Source: Eubacteriales bacterium (GTDB lineage: Bacteria > Bacillota > Clostridia > Lachnospirales > Lachnospiraceae). Taken from it: 37,070 bases of DNA. Location: contig JAUNPJ010000037.1 of the NCBI GenBank assembly GCA_030536755.1, positions 1-37,070 of the forward strand, given 5' to 3'. This document shows, one piece after another, positions 3,750 to 32,016 of the stretch. A model generated the notes under the pieces. It saw only the letters and a list, made by a program, of their open reading frames with translations. It was not told the origin of the DNA and did not search any database. Numbering within the stretch: position 1 is the stretch's first letter; every line of letters starts with the position of its first letter. The translations under genes and the position numbers were made by a program.

Positions 3750-4028
3750 ATGAAGCGAAAAATTATATTATTGAGGACAATTTTTATGGATTTGCCTGTG
3801 GTTTTGCTGTACTGGCAAAAGAGATTTGGCTATGAGCCTGTTGTGGTATGTGGAAAAGTTCCAGGAGGGAGAGACGGATCGCCAGATGGATATACAAGAC
3901 ATTGCTGGGCCATGATTAATGGAAGACATTACCATTCGGAAGCTCAGTATGCAGGATGGGGAAAAGGAATTTACGGATATGGAAATTATCCAATTTCTCA
4001 TCGGATACAAAAAATCGTGAAATTTTGA
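3750..4028 (+). pseudogene. Decayed transglutaminase-like exported protein (internal deletion, frameshift, catalytic Cys lost)
   Basis: The 92-codon open frame begins with a good ribosome-binding site (gaggggg) and the start of a signal peptide (MKRKIILL). It then jumps straight into the catalytic region of a transglutaminase-like domain whose intact relative is encoded at 9196. The bases at 3777-3823 read as DNFYGFACGFAVLAKE in another frame, matching GNCYGFACAFAALADE of the relative. An extra T around 3823-3826 then shifts the frame into FGYEPVVVCGK..DGYTRHCWAMING, which again matches. The catalytic Cys codon (tgt in the relative) is ttt (Phe) here. The stalk, linker and most of the domain are missing. 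It is very unlikely to be an enzyme; a short secreted peptide remains formally possible. Confidence 0.85.
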
Positions 4029-4066: not shown

Positions 4067-4108
4067 TTGTAAGAGTGATGTATTATGATACACTGTATGA
4101 AAATACAG
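4067..4108 (+). promoter_or_regulatory. Promoter with palindromic operator, copy 1
   Basis: A perfect palindrome CTGTATGAAAATACAG lies at 4093-4108, overlapping a -10-like TACACT (4089-4094) with TTGTAA (4067-4072) 16 bases upstream. The string from the -10 through ACAGGT closely resembles those at 5150-5171 and 9075-9096. This copy is upstream of a decayed gene and its -35 and -10 are the weakest of the three. Confidence 0.6.
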
Positions 4109-4113
4109 GTATC

Positions 4114-4998
4114 AAGGAGGAAAAATTATATTATTAAGAACATTGGGAACCAGAAATTACGCCAATCCCGACATAGACGCCAATTCCAGAAGAGACAATC
4201 ACTCCAACACCGGAACCGATAAAAAGTAGTCTTGTGAAAGAAAATGGTTATTATCGCTATTATAAAGATGGAGTATTGCAGAAAAATGTCTGGAAGAAGC
4301 TGAATAACCGAAAATATTATTTTATGTCAAATGGAAATGCTGCTACTTATAGTAAAAAAATTGATGGAAAATATTATATTTTTAACACAAAGGGGCAATT
4401 GTTGACACCTTCTAAGGATAAGATGCTCCCGGTCGGAAAGTATAAGTTTTATATGACGACGAAAGGTGAGGCCGTAACCGGATGGAAAACTTATAATGGC
4501 AAGCTGTACTATATGTATAAATCCGGGCGGTGTGCGGCGAGTACAACCATAGACGGAGTAACTCTTACAAAAGACTGTTGGGCAAAAGATAACGATGCAT
4601 ATAAAGCAAAAATAAAAGCCATGGAAATTGTAGCGCAAATTACAAATCCAAAAATGACACAGACACAGAAACTGCGTGCCTGTTTCAATCATACGATGTC
4701 ATGTCAGTTTGTGGGGGCAAAATATCCCAAGAATTATAAAAACCTCAAAAAAGGATGGTATTATACAACTGGATTAGATATTATGACAATCAGAGTAGGA
4801 AATTGTTATGGATATGCCAGTATGTTTGCATTGCTAGCAAAAGAACTGGGATATACTCCTTATCTTATTGAGGCATATGTTTCAAATGGCGGGGAGCATT
4901 GTTTTGTAAAAATTAATGGAAAGTATTATGATAATATGGGCAATCGTTTTGGTACAGCACCACAATATCATAAAGTAAAAAATCAGTGGAAATTGTAA
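4114..4998 (+). pseudogene. Transglutaminase-like exported protein with wall-binding repeats, 5' end broken
   Basis: From 4234 a 254-codon frame encodes the same stalk as the 9196 gene (GYYRYYKDG.., KYYFMSNGNAAT.., KYYIFNTKGQL..) and a transglutaminase-like domain with an intact Cys191-His222-Asp233 triad (GNCYGYA, GGEHCF, YYDNMG; numbered from the GTG at 4234). Upstream, the expected signal peptide and Pro/Thr linker are damaged. The ribosome-binding site AAGGAGG (4114-4120) abuts AAAAATTATATTATT with no ATG. The remnant signal and the linker are in different frames, and the linker carries an in-frame TAG at 4174-4176. The GTG at 4234 has no ribosome-binding site and would give a protein with no export signal. 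I therefore call a recent pseudogene. A sequencing error cannot explain the lost start, frame change and stop together. Confidence 0.8.
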
Positions 4999-5001
4999 AG
5001 A

Positions 5002-5044
5002 GAACGGCATACATCTGGAAACGGGTATATGCTGTTTTGTTTTA
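5002..5044 (+). terminator. Intrinsic terminator
   Basis: ACGGCATACAT pairs imperfectly with TATATGCTGT across a ctggaaacggg loop and is followed by TTTTGTTTT. The loop sequence resembles that of the hairpin at 8590-8623. Confidence 0.6.
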
Positions 5045-5126
5045 TAAAGATTTTTGATTTTGGTGAATATTACTAAAATAGTGAGCGAAACAAGATTATT
5101 TTGAGTAAAATTAACAATGTGATATA

Positions 5127-5169
5127 TTGAAAAGGAGAATGTATTAATATATACTGTATATAAATACAG
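5127..5169 (+). promoter_or_regulatory. Promoter with palindromic operator, copy 2
   Basis: TTGAAA (5127-5132), 17 bases, TATACT (5150-5155), with the perfect palindrome CTGTATATAAATACAG at 5154-5169 covering the end of the -10 and the predicted start site. A repressor bound here would block open-complex formation. It drives the paralog pair that begins at 5193. Confidence 0.8.
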
Positions 5170-5192
5170 GTAACAGGAAGGAGATTATGAGT

Positions 5193-6887
5193 ATGAAAAA
5201 GAAAAGTGCAATAACATTGGCGGCAATATTAATGGCATCTTTGGGAGTGCAGACATCTGTCTATGCTTCCAATATTCTTAGTTTAGGATATGAAGAGGAA
5301 TCTGGTTTTCAGGAAGAAACATTTGAACCAGTTATTGAGGAAGAGACAGATATATCAGCAAAGGATATGGAGGAAATTGCCATAGTTCCTGAAAATTTCA
5401 TTTTGGAAGTAACAAGAGAAATGGGTGTAGATGGTGATATCCAGAAACAAATAGAGAAATATGGCCCGCTGAAGCAGTTGGAGGAAGCTGATAATTTAGG
5501 AGAGAAAGCTTATACAAAATTGCATGTAGATGTAAAGGAAGATGAAAATTATTATGTGCAGCTTGTTCCTAAGTATACGAGGCGGTATCAGCTTGAAAGT
5601 GATCAATTGGGAGTAGTAGGAGGAATATGGGATTCCAGTTTTAATCCTGTTGACGACAGTAATGATTTGGAAAAAGGAAAAGTATATTATATTCGTGCGG
5701 CTTATGGAAAGGATGAGAGTTATGATCTTGATTTAAGCGTGGTATGTGTGCCGAAGACTATATCTTTTAAAATTCTGGAATCACCGGATCCGAATATTAT
5801 TTATCGAGGATGTGATAGCGGACCTTTGTATTTCCCAAGTGGAATCGTTTTTGAAATTGGATATGAAAATGGCACGAAGGAAATTCGTACTCCTGGAGAA
5901 AATCTTTACGATTATCAAATTATACGTACCTTATTTGGAGAATATATATCGAATACAATTGAAGGAGTGGCTTTGGGGAATTACGATACTATAAAAGCGG
6001 GAAATTATTCTATGACTTTTAAATTGATTCCATCAGGGTTAGAAACAAGACTTGATAATATTATTTTGAAAGAGATGAATCAGCTTCCGTTGATTAAGAA
6101 TAATGGCTCACTTTCCGTTCAGACAAATTTTGAAGGTCATGCATGGCTTAGATTTAAGGCAGATAAAACAGGCAAATATAAAATATCAGGATCTTGTGGC
6201 CAGACAATGTCTCTTTATGTATATGAAGAGGGAAAAACTGATGAGAGGGGATTCCCAAAGACCTGCCTGTTTGAAGGAAACAATGGAGATCAGGTAGCAC
6301 TTAAAGGTGGAAAATATTATTATGTTGAATTTTCGCCTAATACTATAAATGGTATAAGACAAGATGAGGTAATGATTACAATTGAGCCAACAAAAAGTGA
6401 AATATCCAAGTGTAAATTTTCTATGTCATCTTCCGTTGCATACACGGGAAAGAAAGTGGTTCCGACAATTAAGATAATAGATGGAACTGTTATTTTGAAA
6501 AAAGATTCGGATTATACCATTGTGTACAGTAATAATAAAAATTTTGGAACAGCTACAGTAATCATTAAAGGAATGGGTAGTTATACGGGAACTGTGAAGA
6601 AAACCTTCCAGATTGTTCCTGCTGTACCGTCAGGATTTTCTGTACAACAAATCGGAAAACAGTTGAAACTTCAGTGGAAACGTGCAGGAGGGGCTAAATA
6701 TTATGAGGTTTATCAATATAAGAACGGAGAGTGGAAAAAAGTAAAGACCACTTCTGCTGCTTCCTATACAGACAAAGCGGTGAAAAAGGGAATGACTTAT
6801 AAGTATAAAGTACGAGCCTATACTGTAGTGAATGGAAAGAAACTTTATGGAAAGTTTACTTCGGTGAAATCTTATAAATTGAAATAA
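5193..6887 (+). CDS. Exported Ig-like/FN3 surface protein, paralog A
   Basis: 564 residues, no enzyme motif recognised. A signal peptide (MKKKSAITLAAILMASLGVQTSVYA) and an acidic stretch are followed by a large region (about residues 90-400) shared only with the next gene. It has two beta-rich modules with NYYVQLVP..KGKVYYIRA and AWLRFKADKTGKYKISG, reminiscent of PPC-type modules. A YTGKKVVPTI..GTATVIIKG Ig-like module follows (about 405-475), then one FN3 domain (about 480-564, LKLQWKRAGGAKYYEVYQY). The ATG at 5193 is preferred over that at 5187 because AAGGAG (5178-5183) is 9 bases from 5193 but only 3 from 5187. It is the first gene of an operator-controlled pair. The likely role is adhesion or ligand binding at the surface, inferred only from domain type. 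Confidence 0.85.
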   Translation: MKKKSAITLAAILMASLGVQTSVYASNILSLGYEEESGFQEETFEPVIEEETDISAKDMEEIAIVPENFILEVTREMGVDGDIQKQIEKYGPLKQLEEADNLGEKAYTKLHVDVKEDENYYVQLVPKYTRRYQLESDQLGVVGGIWDSSFNPVDDSNDLEKGKVYYIRAAYGKDESYDLDLSVVCVPKTISFKILESPDPNIIYRGCDSGPLYFPSGIVFEIGYENGTKEIRTPGENLYDYQIIRTLFGEYISNTIEGVALGNYDTIKAGNYSMTFKLIPSGLETRLDNIILKEMNQLPLIKNNGSLSVQTNFEGHAWLRFKADKTGKYKISGSCGQTMSLYVYEEGKTDERGFPKTCLFEGNNGDQVALKGGKYYYVEFSPNTINGIRQDEVMITIEPTKSEISKCKFSMSSSVAYTGKKVVPTIKIIDGTVILKKDSDYTIVYSNNKNFGTATVIIKGMGSYTGTVKKTFQIVPAVPSGFSVQQIGKQLKLQWKRAGGAKYYEVYQYKNGEWKKVKTTSAASYTDKAVKKGMTYKYKVRAYTVVNGKKLYGKFTSVKSYKLK

Positions 6888-6925
6888 TAATCGTAATGAA
6901 AATTACAGGAAAGGAAGATTTGAAA

Positions 6926-8569
6926 ATGAAGAAAAAATTAGCAATATTGGTAGCATCTGTAATGGTATTTTCCTCTTTATCCCCGGTTTACGGTGCAGGG
7001 AATTCTGTGGAATCAATAGAAATAGAAGATGTGTTAACTGATGAGTCTGTTACAGAGCCTGTTTTGGAAGAGGATGAGTCTGTTGAGGAGACTGTGACTT
7101 CAGATGATTTTTCGTTAACAGAGCAATTCAAAAATGCTCATCCATTACAGGAAAATCAGGAGACAAGTGTAGATTTTCGGGAAGATCAGGACTATACAGT
7201 GATGTTTTCTTTTGTTCCACAGCGAGATGGGAAATATATGCTGGAAGATGATTTGGATACATATTTAAATATAAGTGTTTATGATGAAGCATCTGAGGAA
7301 GTGTGGCCGATATTTTTTGTCTATACTTTAAAGAAGGGGAAAACTTATTACATAAAAGTAGAAGCAGAAGAAACGATGACTGGGAAAATTTCCATAAAAC
7401 GAAAACCCGAAGTGGCATCTATTGACATTATATCAGAACCGAGCAGAAAAGTGCTTTATCGTGGAATTGATATACTTTGCAGTAGCAGATCGGGTTTTGT
7501 CGGGCTTCCGGGACTTGTTCTGCAGGCAATTTATGAGGATGGAATTGTAGATATAACAGATGCATTTGTTGGTGATGGACAAGACATACCAGACGCTTAT
7601 ACACAACATTATGTTGATATGTATACTTTTAAATTGAATGGTGTATCTGGGAATACTGTCCCGGCAGAGGGAACATATTCAGTAACTATTTCTCTGGAGA
7701 ATCAAAAAATTATTGTTGACGATGTTGTCATAAAAGATTGTAGGGAACTGCCTGCTTCTATTTCAAATAAGGGGAGTTGTCCGGCAATTGTGGCATCCGA
7801 TCAGTGTGGATGGATTCGCCTGAAAACAGGAAAAGCTAGCAAATATCAATTGAATAATAGTATAGGAAATGAGATGTTCGTATATTCAGCAGAAACGTTA
7901 CATTCTGTTCATCCTGTCAGCAGTTGGTTTGACTTTGAAGAATTGGAACGGGTAGAATCCGGAAAAACTGTATTGCTGAATCCGCAAACAGAATATTTTG
8001 TTCGCGTTTCTAGGTTCCATGGGGACGACTATGTATGGGACATGCTTCCGGAAATCACGGTTACTGCAAAGCCATTAGAGGAGATGAATCTATCTTCCTG
8101 CAGTATCACGATTCCTGCTGCCACTTATACAGGAAAGCCTGTATCACCTGCAATTACTGTAAAGTACGGCTCTAAGAAACTGACAAAAAATAAAGATTAC
8201 ACGGTTTCTTATAAGAACAATGCCAAGTGTGGAACAGCGACTGCTATTATTAAAGGAAAAGGCAGTTACAAAGGAACTGTGAAAAAATCATTCCAGATTA
8301 TTCCAGCTACACCGACAGAATTTACTGTAAAAAAATTTGGAGATTATTTGAAACTTCAGTGGAAAAAAACTGGAGGTGCAAACGGGTATGAGATTCATCA
8401 ATATAAGGGTGGAACCTGGAAGAAAATTAAGACAACTACAGGGGCTATATATACAGATAAAACAGTGAAGAGGGGAGCGACGTATAAATACAAAGTACGT
8501 GCATATGCGACTGTAAATGGCAAAAAAATTTATGGGAAATTTACGTCAGTAAAATCATATAAATTTTGA
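6926..8569 (+). CDS. Exported Ig-like/FN3 surface protein, paralog B
   Basis: 547 residues, with the same order as its upstream neighbour: signal peptide (MKKKLAILVASVMVFSSLSPVYGA), acidic segment, two beta-rich modules (YTVMFSFVPQRDGKY..KGKTYYIKV; GWIRLKTGKASKYQL), a YTGKPVSPAI..GTATAIIKG Ig-like module, and a C-terminal FN3 ending KIYGKFTSVKSYKF. The last 160 residues are much closer to paralog A than the N-terminal part, which has diverged strongly, as expected for a variable ligand-facing head on a conserved tail. The ATG at 6926 sits 7 bases after AAAGGAAG; the in-frame ATG at 6896 lacks a site and would bury the signal peptide. It is co-transcribed with paralog A (38-base gap). No catalytic motif is seen. 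Confidence 0.85.
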   Translation: MKKKLAILVASVMVFSSLSPVYGAGNSVESIEIEDVLTDESVTEPVLEEDESVEETVTSDDFSLTEQFKNAHPLQENQETSVDFREDQDYTVMFSFVPQRDGKYMLEDDLDTYLNISVYDEASEEVWPIFFVYTLKKGKTYYIKVEAEETMTGKISIKRKPEVASIDIISEPSRKVLYRGIDILCSSRSGFVGLPGLVLQAIYEDGIVDITDAFVGDGQDIPDAYTQHYVDMYTFKLNGVSGNTVPAEGTYSVTISLENQKIIVDDVVIKDCRELPASISNKGSCPAIVASDQCGWIRLKTGKASKYQLNNSIGNEMFVYSAETLHSVHPVSSWFDFEELERVESGKTVLLNPQTEYFVRVSRFHGDDYVWDMLPEITVTAKPLEEMNLSSCSITIPAATYTGKPVSPAITVKYGSKKLTKNKDYTVSYKNNAKCGTATAIIKGKGSYKGTVKKSFQIIPATPTEFTVKKFGDYLKLQWKKTGGANGYEIHQYKGGTWKKIKTTTGAIYTDKTVKRGATYKYKVRAYATVNGKKIYGKFTSVKSYKF

Positions 8570-8589
8570 AATGAAATAGTTCCATGAAA

Positions 8590-8623
8590 AAGCGACACAT
8601 ATCTGGCTGGGTATGTGCCGCTT
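8590..8623 (+). terminator. Hairpin after paralog B (weak terminator)
   Basis: AAGCG-a-CACATA pairs with TATGTG-c-CGCTT across a 10-base loop. No T-run follows, so termination may depend on the second hairpin at 8754. The rest of 8624-8753 is AT-rich with no gene that I can see. Confidence 0.45.
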
Positions 8624-8753
8624 GATATAGAGTTGGGGATAAAACATAAAAATAGGATTGAAAATAATAATTAAATATTATGTAATGCAATGCTAAGGAA
8701 TGCAAAAGAAAGATGTATCTATATTGCAAATAAATCTAAAAAAATGCACAAAA

Positions 8754-8783
8754 ATAAGACACCAGTTTTCTGGTGCGTTTTTG
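8754..8783. terminator. Bidirectional terminator between convergent genes
   Basis: CACCAG-tttt-CTGGTG (8760-8775) is followed by CGTTTTT on the plus strand; on the minus strand the same stem is followed by TCTTATTTTT. It can end both the paralog A/B transcript and the XRE gene. Confidence 0.75.
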
Positions 8784-8804
8784 CATAACATAAACTCTTA
8801 AATA

Positions 8805-9005
8805 TCAGCGGAGTTTTAAAATGTCGTTAGGAGTACAATCAAGGAATTCGCACATTTTTCCGAGAATAGAAAGATCTACTCTGGTGACCTTGTTTTTGCA
8901 GTAATTATTCAATTGTGTTCGTTGAAGCTTGCATGCTTCGCAAAGTTTATTCTTACTTATGTTTTTTTCTTTGAGAAGATTCTCCAAATCAATATAAACT
9001 GTCAT
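8805..9005 (-). CDS. Small XRE/Cro-CI-type helix-turn-helix regulator
   Basis: 66 residues, almost entirely one HTH_3-type DNA-binding domain. Residues 16-35 (NKLCEACKLQRTQLNNYCKN) form the helix-turn-helix core, and the protein ends CEFLDCTPNDILKLR, the usual tail of short YozG/Cro-like proteins. There is no sensor or dimerisation domain beyond it. AAAGGA lies about 10 bases before the start. It is transcribed away from the 9196 operon, and the intervening region contains the operator palindrome at 9079-9094 plus an extra half-site CTGTAT at 9047-9052 between the two promoters. From position I infer that it binds these palindromes and controls both directions. The identity of the inducer is unknown. 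Confidence 0.85.
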   Translation of the reverse strand: MTVYIDLENLLKEKNISKNKLCEACKLQRTQLNNYCKNKVTRVDLSILGKMCEFLDCTPNDILKLR

Positions 9006-9032
9006 ATAATCAAAATCCTTTCTTTTTTACGA

Positions 9033-9061
9033 ATTATAGGATACCTCTGTATTGAAAAATA
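9033..9061 (-). promoter_or_regulatory. Candidate promoter of the XRE gene
   Basis: On the minus strand TATAAT (plus-strand 9033-9038) lies 28 bases before the start codon. The -35 region is AT-rich and poor (TATTTT-like at 9056-9061) and overlaps the -35 of the divergent promoter, so the two promoters should compete or be jointly controlled. Confidence 0.45.
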
Positions 9062-9094
9062 AAATGTGTTAAAATATACTGTATTAAAGTACAG
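9052..9094 (+). promoter_or_regulatory. Promoter with palindromic operator, copy 3
   Basis: TTGAAA (9052-9057), 17 bases, TATACT (9075-9080), with palindrome CTGTATTAAAGTACAG at 9079-9094 (one inner mismatch). The -35, spacing, -10 and operator position match the 5127 promoter exactly. The predicted leader to 9196 is about 110 bases and holds nothing else that I recognise. Confidence 0.8.
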
Positions 9095-9195
9095 GTGTAA
9101 GAAAAATGTTTCTATTATTATCCCAATCATAAAAAATATGATGCCCTAATTTTATTAAAAAATGGGAACTCTTATACGAAAATTAAGGAGAAAAA

Positions 9196-10185
9196 ATGAA
9201 AAAGAAACTTATATTACTATTTGGAATACTTATGATCGGATTTATGCCATTGTCTGCTACTAATCAGGTGATAGCGGATGACACGGAGGTGATAACGCCA
9301 ACTCCAACACCAATCCAGACAGTTACACCAACTGTGACTCCAACACCAAGGCCTGTCAAAGACGGATTGGTAAAAGAAGAGGGATATTATCGTTATTATA
9401 AAAAAGGAAAACTTTTAAAAAGCCAGTGGAAAGATGTGGATGGTAAGAGATATTATTTCAAATCTGATGGTAATGGTGCTACATACAGCTGTAAAATAGA
9501 CGGTCAGTATTATGTATTTAATGAACGAGCCAGATTGGTGAGACCTGTATCCAACAAGGTTGTAGCAGTTGGTGATAAAAAATATCTGGCAGATTCAAAA
9601 GGAAGACCGAAGACAGGGTGGAATGTTGTAAAAGACAAACTTTACTATGTGGATAAAACTGGTGAATGTGTGAAGAATAAGACTGTGGATGGTGTGACAT
9701 TGACAAAAGACTGCTGGGCAAAGAATAACACGAATACACAGTTAAAATTATTATGTATGAAGACAGTGAAAGAACTGACTACAGACAATATGACAAAAAG
9801 CCAGAAACTTTATCGCTGTTGGAGTTATCTTTCAGGTGGGCGCTTTGGGTATGTGTCAAAGTATCCGGATTTAAGCAAAACTGGATGGCATAGAAAGACA
9901 GCTCTTGAAATGTTTCAAAGAAGAGGTGGAAACTGTTATGGATTTGCATGTGCATTTGCCGCTCTCGCTGATGAAATTGGATATGAGCCAGTTATTATAT
10001 GTGGAAGAATTAAAATTGCATATGGAAGAGATCATGCGGCGGATGGCTATACGCGGCATTGCTGGGTTATGATTGACGGTAAACATTATGATCCGGAGGG
10101 GCAGTTTGCAGGTTGGTACAGAGGAATTTATGGATATAAGTCGTATCCTCTAGCTACGCAGATTCAGAAGAAAGTAAAGTATTAA
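9196..10185 (+). CDS. Exported transglutaminase-like protein with wall-binding repeats
   Basis: 329 residues: signal peptide (1-28), a Thr/Pro linker (TPTPTPIQTVTPTVTPTP, about 35-52), and a stalk of aromatic choline/glucan-binding-like repeats (about 60-165, GYYRYYKKG, KRYYFKSDG, QYYVFNERA, KLYYVDKTG). A transglutaminase-like domain (about 175-329) carries the Cys247-His288-Asp299 triad (GGNCYGFA, TRHCW, HYDPEG). Bacterial members of this fold are mostly cysteine peptidases or peptide-processing enzymes, so a crosslinking role cannot be assumed. It is the first gene of the operator-controlled operon and the intact relative of the pseudogenes at 3750 and 4114. The start is supported by AAGGAG just upstream and by the signal peptide. 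Confidence 0.88.
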   Translation: MKKKLILLFGILMIGFMPLSATNQVIADDTEVITPTPTPIQTVTPTVTPTPRPVKDGLVKEEGYYRYYKKGKLLKSQWKDVDGKRYYFKSDGNGATYSCKIDGQYYVFNERARLVRPVSNKVVAVGDKKYLADSKGRPKTGWNVVKDKLYYVDKTGECVKNKTVDGVTLTKDCWAKNNTNTQLKLLCMKTVKELTTDNMTKSQKLYRCWSYLSGGRFGYVSKYPDLSKTGWHRKTALEMFQRRGGNCYGFACAFAALADEIGYEPVIICGRIKIAYGRDHAADGYTRHCWVMIDGKHYDPEGQFAGWYRGIYGYKSYPLATQIQKKVKY

Positions 10186-31363: not shown

Positions 31364-32016
31364 TGTTTTTCCTGAACACAGCAGGCGCGTTTGTATGCGG
31401 GTCTGCTGTAAAATAAGAGATATCCTGCGCCAGCCATAGCAGCTCCAAGAGTCGCATCAATGACAGAATGCTGTTTCAAAAACATGGTTGACAGGATGAT
31501 CAGTGACGTCAGAATGCCGGCACCTCTTTTCAACCATTTCTTATCTTTCAGTTGTTCACATTTGCAGATAGCCAGATGAATGGCTATGGAATTAAACACA
31601 TGAATACTTGGAAGAATGTTTGTGGGTGTATCAATGGAATATAAGTATTGTACTGCGCGGATAAACAGATTGTCATCTGCAAAAACAGCCGGACGAAGCA
31701 GCTGAATGTTCGGATAGAGCCATGATACGATCAGAAAAACAGTCATTCCCATACAGAGATTTAAGGTAAGCTGGTAGTATTCCCGTTTGTCTTTGTTGAA
31801 GAAGATAAAATAGGCGACAACAAAAACCTGGTATGGAAACCACAGAAGATAAGGTACAATAAAATATTCACAAAATGGAATCAGATTGTCTAATGCGCAG
31901 TGGATCAAATGATACGAATAAACATGTCTTTGTTCCAGATACTGGAAGACGCAAAGATATAAAGCTGCATAAATGACAATGACAAAACCATGTTTATATT
32001 TCTTGATAAAATTCAT
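31348..32016 (-). CDS. PAP2-like membrane phosphatase
   Basis: 222 residues with about six hydrophobic segments. The PAP2 signatures are recognisable: LPSIHVFNS (motif 2, usually PSGH) and KQHSVIDATLG (motif 3, with His and Asp). The first motif (KxxxxxxRP) is probably NIQLLRPAVF, where the leading Lys is not obvious. Relatives dephosphorylate lipid pyrophosphates or phosphatidic acid, or act as inositolphosphoceramide-synthase-like transferases. Substitution in the first motif makes the reaction uncertain. It is convergent with, and overlaps, the glycosyltransferase gene by 16 bases. Confidence 0.82.
   Translation of the reverse strand: MNFIKKYKHGFVIVIYAALYLCVFQYLEQRHVYSYHLIHCALDNLIPFCEYFIVPYLLWFPYQVFVVAYFIFFNKDKREYYQLTLNLCMGMTVFLIVSWLYPNIQLLRPAVFADDNLFIRAVQYLYSIDTPTNILPSIHVFNSIAIHLAICKCEQLKDKKWLKRGAGILTSLIILSTMFLKQHSVIDATLGAAMAGAGYLLFYSRPAYKRACCVQEKHQLNP

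Follow-up and report, generated by a model that had tools for sequence, protein, structure and literature searches.

Two small regulators of Enterococcus faecalis are the closest described parallels to the locus reported here. VanUG, the small XRE repressor of the vanG operon, binds and protects a stretch of promoter DNA in which two imperfect 14-bp inverted repeats lie next to each other (PMC4405338). Its protection of PUG runs from -70 to -20 and reaches +10 only when the concentration is raised (PMC4405338); VanU is itself encoded within the operon transcribed from the promoter that it binds. The cytolysin repressor CylR2, a Cro-type protein of 66 aa whose gene is divergent from its target promoter, acts together with CylR1, a suspected membrane protein (PMC3709268). 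CylR1 has three predicted membrane helices and is located on the same side of the promoter pair as the regulator (PMC3709268). We analyzed a stretch of 37,070 nt, hereafter the window (contig JAUNPJ010000037.1 of assembly GCA_030536755.1), from an Eubacteriales bacterium of the Lachnospiraceae with a genome of 3.84 Mb. In it, a tandem element of two short dyads is present at three promoters in the neighbourhood of a gene for a 66-aa XRE protein (8805-9005). We consider, with a probability of about 0.8, that this element is the operator of the XRE protein, which would repress three promoters of exported-protein genes by binding as dimers to both dyads. Our literature search found no description of this XRE clade or its operator, which is not proof of absence.

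The preliminary description of this DNA had reported three palindromes of the form CTGTAT-N4-ATACAG. Those at 4093-4108 and 5154-5169 are exact, while the third, at 9079-9094 (CTGTATTAAAGTACAG), has one mismatch. With up to two mismatches allowed, the motif has seven matches in the window against 1.45 expected, a count reached in 0 of 100 shuffles. We observed that each palindrome is one half of a tandem pair, which had been missed: two 14-bp dyads, TGTAT-N4-ATACA, 15 bp apart. At all three promoters the first dyad (O1) lies in the spacer between the -35 and the -10, and the second (O2) over the end of the -10 and the start site. The overlap with the -10 and start site reported earlier applies to O2. 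The promoters at 5127 and 9052 were recovered by a promoter scanner as identical (TTGAAA-17-TATACT), as had been stated.

The three sites also stand out when judged by sequences from other genomes. A 37-bp matrix was trained on 40 distinct sequences from 46 homologue loci, with the window excluded (at least four of them, L217, L225, L262 and L234, were wrongly registered). By this matrix the window sites rank first to third (36.6, 23.3 and 22.5); no other place in the window free of overlap with them exceeds 0.4, and 120 kb of other loci of the same genome, chosen for core-like palindromes, reach 15.5 at most. A 31-bp consensus built from the same homologues finds the window sites with 1, 3 and 3 mismatches; in 200 shuffled windows the number never fell below 7. 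Matches to this consensus (at most 3 mismatches) in other genomes arise partly by construction, while those in the window do not.

The occurrence of the dyad was compared with that of XRE homologues. A search of 397 family genomes with the XRE protein at E<=1e-7 gave 80 matches in 60 genomes, and 75 of these were taken for counting the dyad (TGTAT-N4-ATACA, at most one mismatch, located 20-150 bp before the start of the XRE gene); the window and two loci whose upstream sequence was shorter than 130 bp (L094 and L096) were left out of the identity bands. The dyad was present in 18/18 homologues of at least 50% identity, all with the full upstream region, and in 3/54 below 50%; the reversed pattern gave 0/18 and 4/54. 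A second set, overlapping the first in genomes, comprised the best 80 of 100 relatives in loci of named genomes, many of which bear Lachnospiraceae names. Here the dyad lay upstream of 14/15 homologues at 75% identity or more, 26/31 at 60-75%, 10/24 at 50-60% and 0/10 below 50%. In the same order of bands, the reversed pattern was found in 0, 0, 2 and 0 loci and the dyad in the downstream region in 0, 2, 0 and 0, the shuffle expectation being 0.51, 0.73, 0.71 and 0.15. In an alignment of the upstream regions, both dyads and the probable -10 of the XRE gene are in common register in most rows. Since the site co-occurs with the XRE gene and is lost below 50% identity, the XRE protein is pointed out as the probable binder, despite the shared ancestry of the loci. 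This comparison supports the earlier proposal of XRE binding, which had been made from position, and we infer that the binding is direct. No homologue at E<=1e-8 was found in the two genus mates searched. In locus L224 of the named set the tandem operator occurs twice, at 4256-4284 and at 4617-4645 of the reverse complement (some 360 bp from one another), and the XRE gene seems to be present there as two consecutive copies.

At the scale of whole genomes, the short core and the tandem element behaved differently. The short core CTGTAT-N4-ATACAG is not rare: at one mismatch or fewer it occurs at 42 places in the genome of the window. Of the 39 that lie outside the window, 37 are in or overlap open reading frames (ORFs) of at least 70 codons, which ruled out the core palindrome as the mark of a genome-wide regulon. 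Exact TGTAT-N4-ATACA occurs 28 times (3 in the window, 13 among the short-core places and 12 that were examined separately, 11 of them inside ORFs); the reversed control occurs 3 times, a difference given no weight since the control has another base order. The twelfth separately examined place, on contig 6 at 31832, is at the same time one of the two short-core places not in ORFs; it belongs to a single dyad (31831-31846, CTGTATAAAAATACAC) between ORFs and directly before a gene for a 430-aa protein, and may be an extra site. The tandem consensus, at up to 3 mismatches, has three sites in the 3.84 Mb, and all are in the window. The objection that the palindrome might be equally common at random places in the genome thus applies to the short core and not to the tandem element. 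A related pattern, TACTGTAT-N5-TACAGGT, was followed in 61 genomes, where it has 23 places outside the genome of the window; 14 that could be read on the plus strand were examined, and 11 of these are in ORFs and 3 between them.

Over the 397 family genomes, the 31-bp consensus matched seven, and all seven carry the XRE gene. They represent 7/21 genomes with a homologue of at least 50% identity and 0/376 of the others. In the six matched genomes other than that of the window, each consensus site is upstream of that genome's XRE gene, and the reversed control gave one match in one genome. Because the link between site and XRE rests on co-occurrence, another host regulator could in principle bind these sites, the XRE gene being merely a neighbour. 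We consider this improbable, as the consensus is restricted to XRE carriers and, in 8/15 close homologues, the XRE module lies on DNA resembling conjugative elements, an association not expected of a chromosomal host factor. The SOS/LexA box of E. coli resembles CTGTAT-N4-ATACAG; since the sites go with the XRE gene, it was not retained as an identity for the palindrome.

The resemblance to conjugative elements comes from relatives of the Rep-initiator and FtsK-like genes of L209, which were present in the loci of those eight close homologues (at least 75% identity) and in 0/65 others. Six of the eight loci also have both DUF961 genes. Such a set (replication initiator, FtsK-like, DUF961) is known from Tn916-type elements. 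Loci of this appearance are L209 (2936-7885; Rep_trans, FtsK-like) and also L213-L216, L219, L221, L222 and L225.

A divergent ORF was picked in 41 of the 50 dyad-bearing loci of the named set (at least 50% identity). By a simple score, 38 of these 41 partners have an N-terminal hydrophobic stretch (L232 barely). The partners fall into 10 groups that BLASTP at E<=1e-4 does not link, although some of these groups may be distantly related: 27 belong to one BLAST-linked family of small proteins, four are secreted proteins, and the remainder form two pairs and six singles. The four proteins of the small family that were scanned had no Pfam match below E 0.08. In the secreted group, three first genes were scanned; those of L242 and L249 match the choline-binding repeat and that of L280 has no match, while the gene in second place in that operon of L280 has matches to choline-binding and transglutaminase domains, the domain pair of the 9196 protein of the window. 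The site stays while the divergent partner gene changes, and it therefore follows the regulator and not the partner. A distant, lipoprotein-like relative of the small exported protein is encoded on contig 52 of the genome of the window (L293, 1390-1806), and its 3.3-kb locus has no dyad at one mismatch or fewer.

These observations also bear on whether the palindrome could work in RNA, as a hairpin at the 5' end of the mRNA that affects stability or ribosome access, instead of as a DNA operator. O2 is at the expected transcript start and, by inspection of the sequence, could form a 6-bp stem; a sequence resembling a ribosome-binding site follows closely after it at 5154 and 4093. O1, however, lies between the -35 and -10, ahead of the expected start site, so that it should be untranscribed; it is nevertheless kept as a dyad in the homologues (alignment and matrix). 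The tandem element, moreover, stays with the XRE gene when the partner gene differs. We therefore regard a hairpin function as very unlikely.

When the three promoters of the window were compared pairwise, they agreed at 26-27 of the 32 positions of the operator core. Agreement outside the core was 9-14/38 upstream of the -35, and 11-16/33 and 15-16/50 downstream; in the 14-bp block from the -35 to O1, the 5154 and 9079 promoters agree at 11/14 positions and the other pairs at 5-6. Such likeness would need no shared regulator if the promoters were recent copies of one, and the pseudogene at 4234 is indeed paralogous to the 9196 gene (47% identity), so that these two promoters may share descent. 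As an explanation of all three, we give recent copying hardly any credence: the likeness is concentrated in the core and drops in the longer flanks, the 5187 gene shows no sign of paralogy to 4234 or 9196 by Pfam, and a similar core occurs in other genera. Promoter copying and shared regulation are in any case compatible.

The XRE protein is a member of PF13443 (HTH_26; E 7.5e-17; 61.8 bits, cut-off 22). The earlier claim that 8805-9005 is the sole gene for a DNA-binding protein nearby was borne out, as no other of the 29 main ORFs of the window encodes a helix-turn-helix protein by Pfam. An AlphaFold2 model (mean pLDDT 95.3, 32 aligned sequences) has the Cro-type helical fold. Foldseek returned CylR2 as the best match of this model, with template modelling (TM) scores of 0.87/0.89 and 23-25% identity over the fold match; VanUg scored 0.76/0.68 at 30% identity, and the other nearest solved folds were the DNA-binding part of the SaPI2 Stl repressor and the Bacteroides protein 3bs3. 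By sequence, VanUG is the top PDB match (E 0.0052). The protein scores 23 bits with the VanU equivalog model NF000090, far from its cut-off of 150, and the 29 ORFs include no sensor kinase, response regulator or D-Ala ligase family of a vanG-type operon by Pfam. Both C22 and C25 are present in 56/80 homologues of the named set, a figure inflated because these relatives were retrieved with two clade motifs, the recognition helix and C-X2-C, so that cysteine counts are biased by selection. With the cysteine pair, 49/56 have the dyad; without it, 1/24.

As predicted from the sequence, two XRE dimers would sit side by side on O1 and O2. They would cover the spacer, the -10 and the start site, and RNA polymerase would thereby be excluded from the three promoters. 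The probable promoter of the XRE gene points away from the element and may stay free or even be helped. Operators of the phage 434/lambda type likewise consist of neighbouring short dyads between divergent promoters, and in divergent phage-repressor operators the repressor's own promoter is free or helped. The promoters of the window differ from these in having two dyads each and not three, and no phage genes were recognised among the 29 ORFs scanned. With VanUG the putative operator shares the two adjacent 14-bp inverted repeats. Unlike the region of PUG protected by VanUG, the dyads of the window occupy the spacer (O1) and the start site (O2), and unlike VanU, the XRE gene is divergent from the operator-bearing gene. 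The latter arrangement is that of CylR2; unlike CylR1, the small exported protein of the XRE clade is on the operator-bearing side and has one membrane helix by eye. The XRE system thus belongs to a known kind of regulator; its predicted operator is well defined, and its expansion to three sites is unusual.

Several observations weigh against assigning the element to the XRE protein at three promoters. The homologue loci are related by descent, and their counts are not independent trials. The dyad at one mismatch or fewer is absent from 30/80 homologues of the named set; five of the six misses at 60% identity or more show it with two mismatches, and L234, at 72% identity, has nothing recognisable as a dyad. 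At 3 mismatches the consensus misses 14 of the 21 carriers with a homologue of at least 50% identity, and in the six other matched genomes the consensus scan found no second operator away from the XRE gene. A looser tandem pattern (3 mismatches, free inner letters) matches 135/397 genomes and resembles its reversed control by eye; it was dropped as an uninformative probe. Within the window, the 5154 and 9079 pairs score lower than 31 of the 40 training sequences, and the promoter at 4093 combines weak hexamers with a dead gene downstream.

Table 1. Features of the window discussed in the text
Feature	Position	Strand	Sequence, basis or remark
O1 of promoter 4093	4079..4092	+	TGTATTATGATACA, exact
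O2 of promoter 4093	4094..4107	+	TGTATGAAAATACA, exact; core of the palindrome noted earlier; matrix score of the pair 36.6, top in window
O1 of promoter 5154	5140..5153	+	TGTATTAATATATA, 1 mismatch; pair found by matrix and consensus
O2 of promoter 5154	5155..5168	+	TGTATATAAATACA, exact
O1 of promoter 9079	9065..9078	+	TGTGTTAAAATATA, 2 mismatches; pair found by matrix and consensus
O2 of promoter 9079	9080..9093	+	TGTATTAAAGTACA, 1 mismatch
Weak promoter-like hexamers TTGTAA-16-TACACT	4067..4094	+	Read from sequence; not listed by scanner
Promoter TTGAAA-17-TATACT	5127..5155	+	Promoter scanner
Promoter TTGAAA-17-TATACT, divergent from XRE gene	9052..9080	+	Promoter scanner
Probable XRE -10, TATAAT	9033..9038	-	Sequence and homologue alignment; similar place in most aligned homologues
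XRE/Cro-type regulator, 66 aa, PF13443 HTH_26, predicted operator binder	8805..9005	-	Pfam, AlphaFold2, Foldseek, homologues with operator
Former target: pseudogene of 9196 paralogue, start lost, internal TAG	4234..4998	+	47% identity to 9196 protein, frames read
Predicted target: exported protein, Fn3-like towards its C-terminus; may form an operon with 6896-8569	5187..6887	+	Matches below Pfam cut-offs
Predicted target: exported protein with choline-binding repeats and transglutaminase-like domain	9196..10185	+	Transglut_core above Pfam cut-off, choline-binding models below; signal-peptide-like N-terminus by eye

The probable -10 of the XRE gene lies about 27 bp before O1, and no good -35 was seen for it on reading the sequence. 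The homologues are usually arranged back to back with a gene for an exported protein, and we take this form of the module, the XRE gene with one divergent exported-protein gene, found in many relatives, to be ancestral; in the genome of the window the operator is present on two further promoters as well. The preliminary description had placed all three sites before exported-protein genes and had proposed a local regulon of three promoters. The first statement holds for 5187 and 9196, the products of which have signal-peptide-like starts by eye, and not for 4234, a pseudogene with no start codon in place. Sites are present at all three promoters, and control of all three by the XRE protein is predicted; one target being a pseudogene, the present regulon may therefore consist of two transcription units and possibly the XRE gene.

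A clade of small regulators found in many gut Clostridia thereby gains, from sequence comparison, a predicted binding site and predicted targets. Most of the latter are exported proteins, and they include choline-binding and transglutaminase-like surface proteins and a family of small membrane proteins. The operator on three promoters here, against one in the six other consensus-matched genomes, would be a small case of regulon growth. A wider and rather doubtful suggestion is that the XRE gene and tandem operator form a partly mobile cassette that moves among gut Clostridia, partly on conjugative elements, and repeatedly captures exported-protein promoters. In the same tentative suggestion, the C-X2-C pair typical of the clade, with C36, C52 and C57, may sense the metal or thiol state, or the protein may sense a signal from the small membrane protein controlled.

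Around the target genes, some smaller observations were made. The 9196 protein is matched at E<=1e-25 in only two others of the 61 genomes, so that its orthologues were of no help as a test of the operator, and a search of genome contigs with it gave no relative. The promoter of the pseudogene at 4234-4998 still holds the top operator score in the window. Just before it, 3750-4028 is a decayed relative of 9196, apparently a C-terminal fragment by eye. Between O2 and the 9196 gene there is a 100-bp leader (9094-9196) with a short hydrophobic-looking frame, which by eye, and weakly, might be a remnant of the small exported protein.

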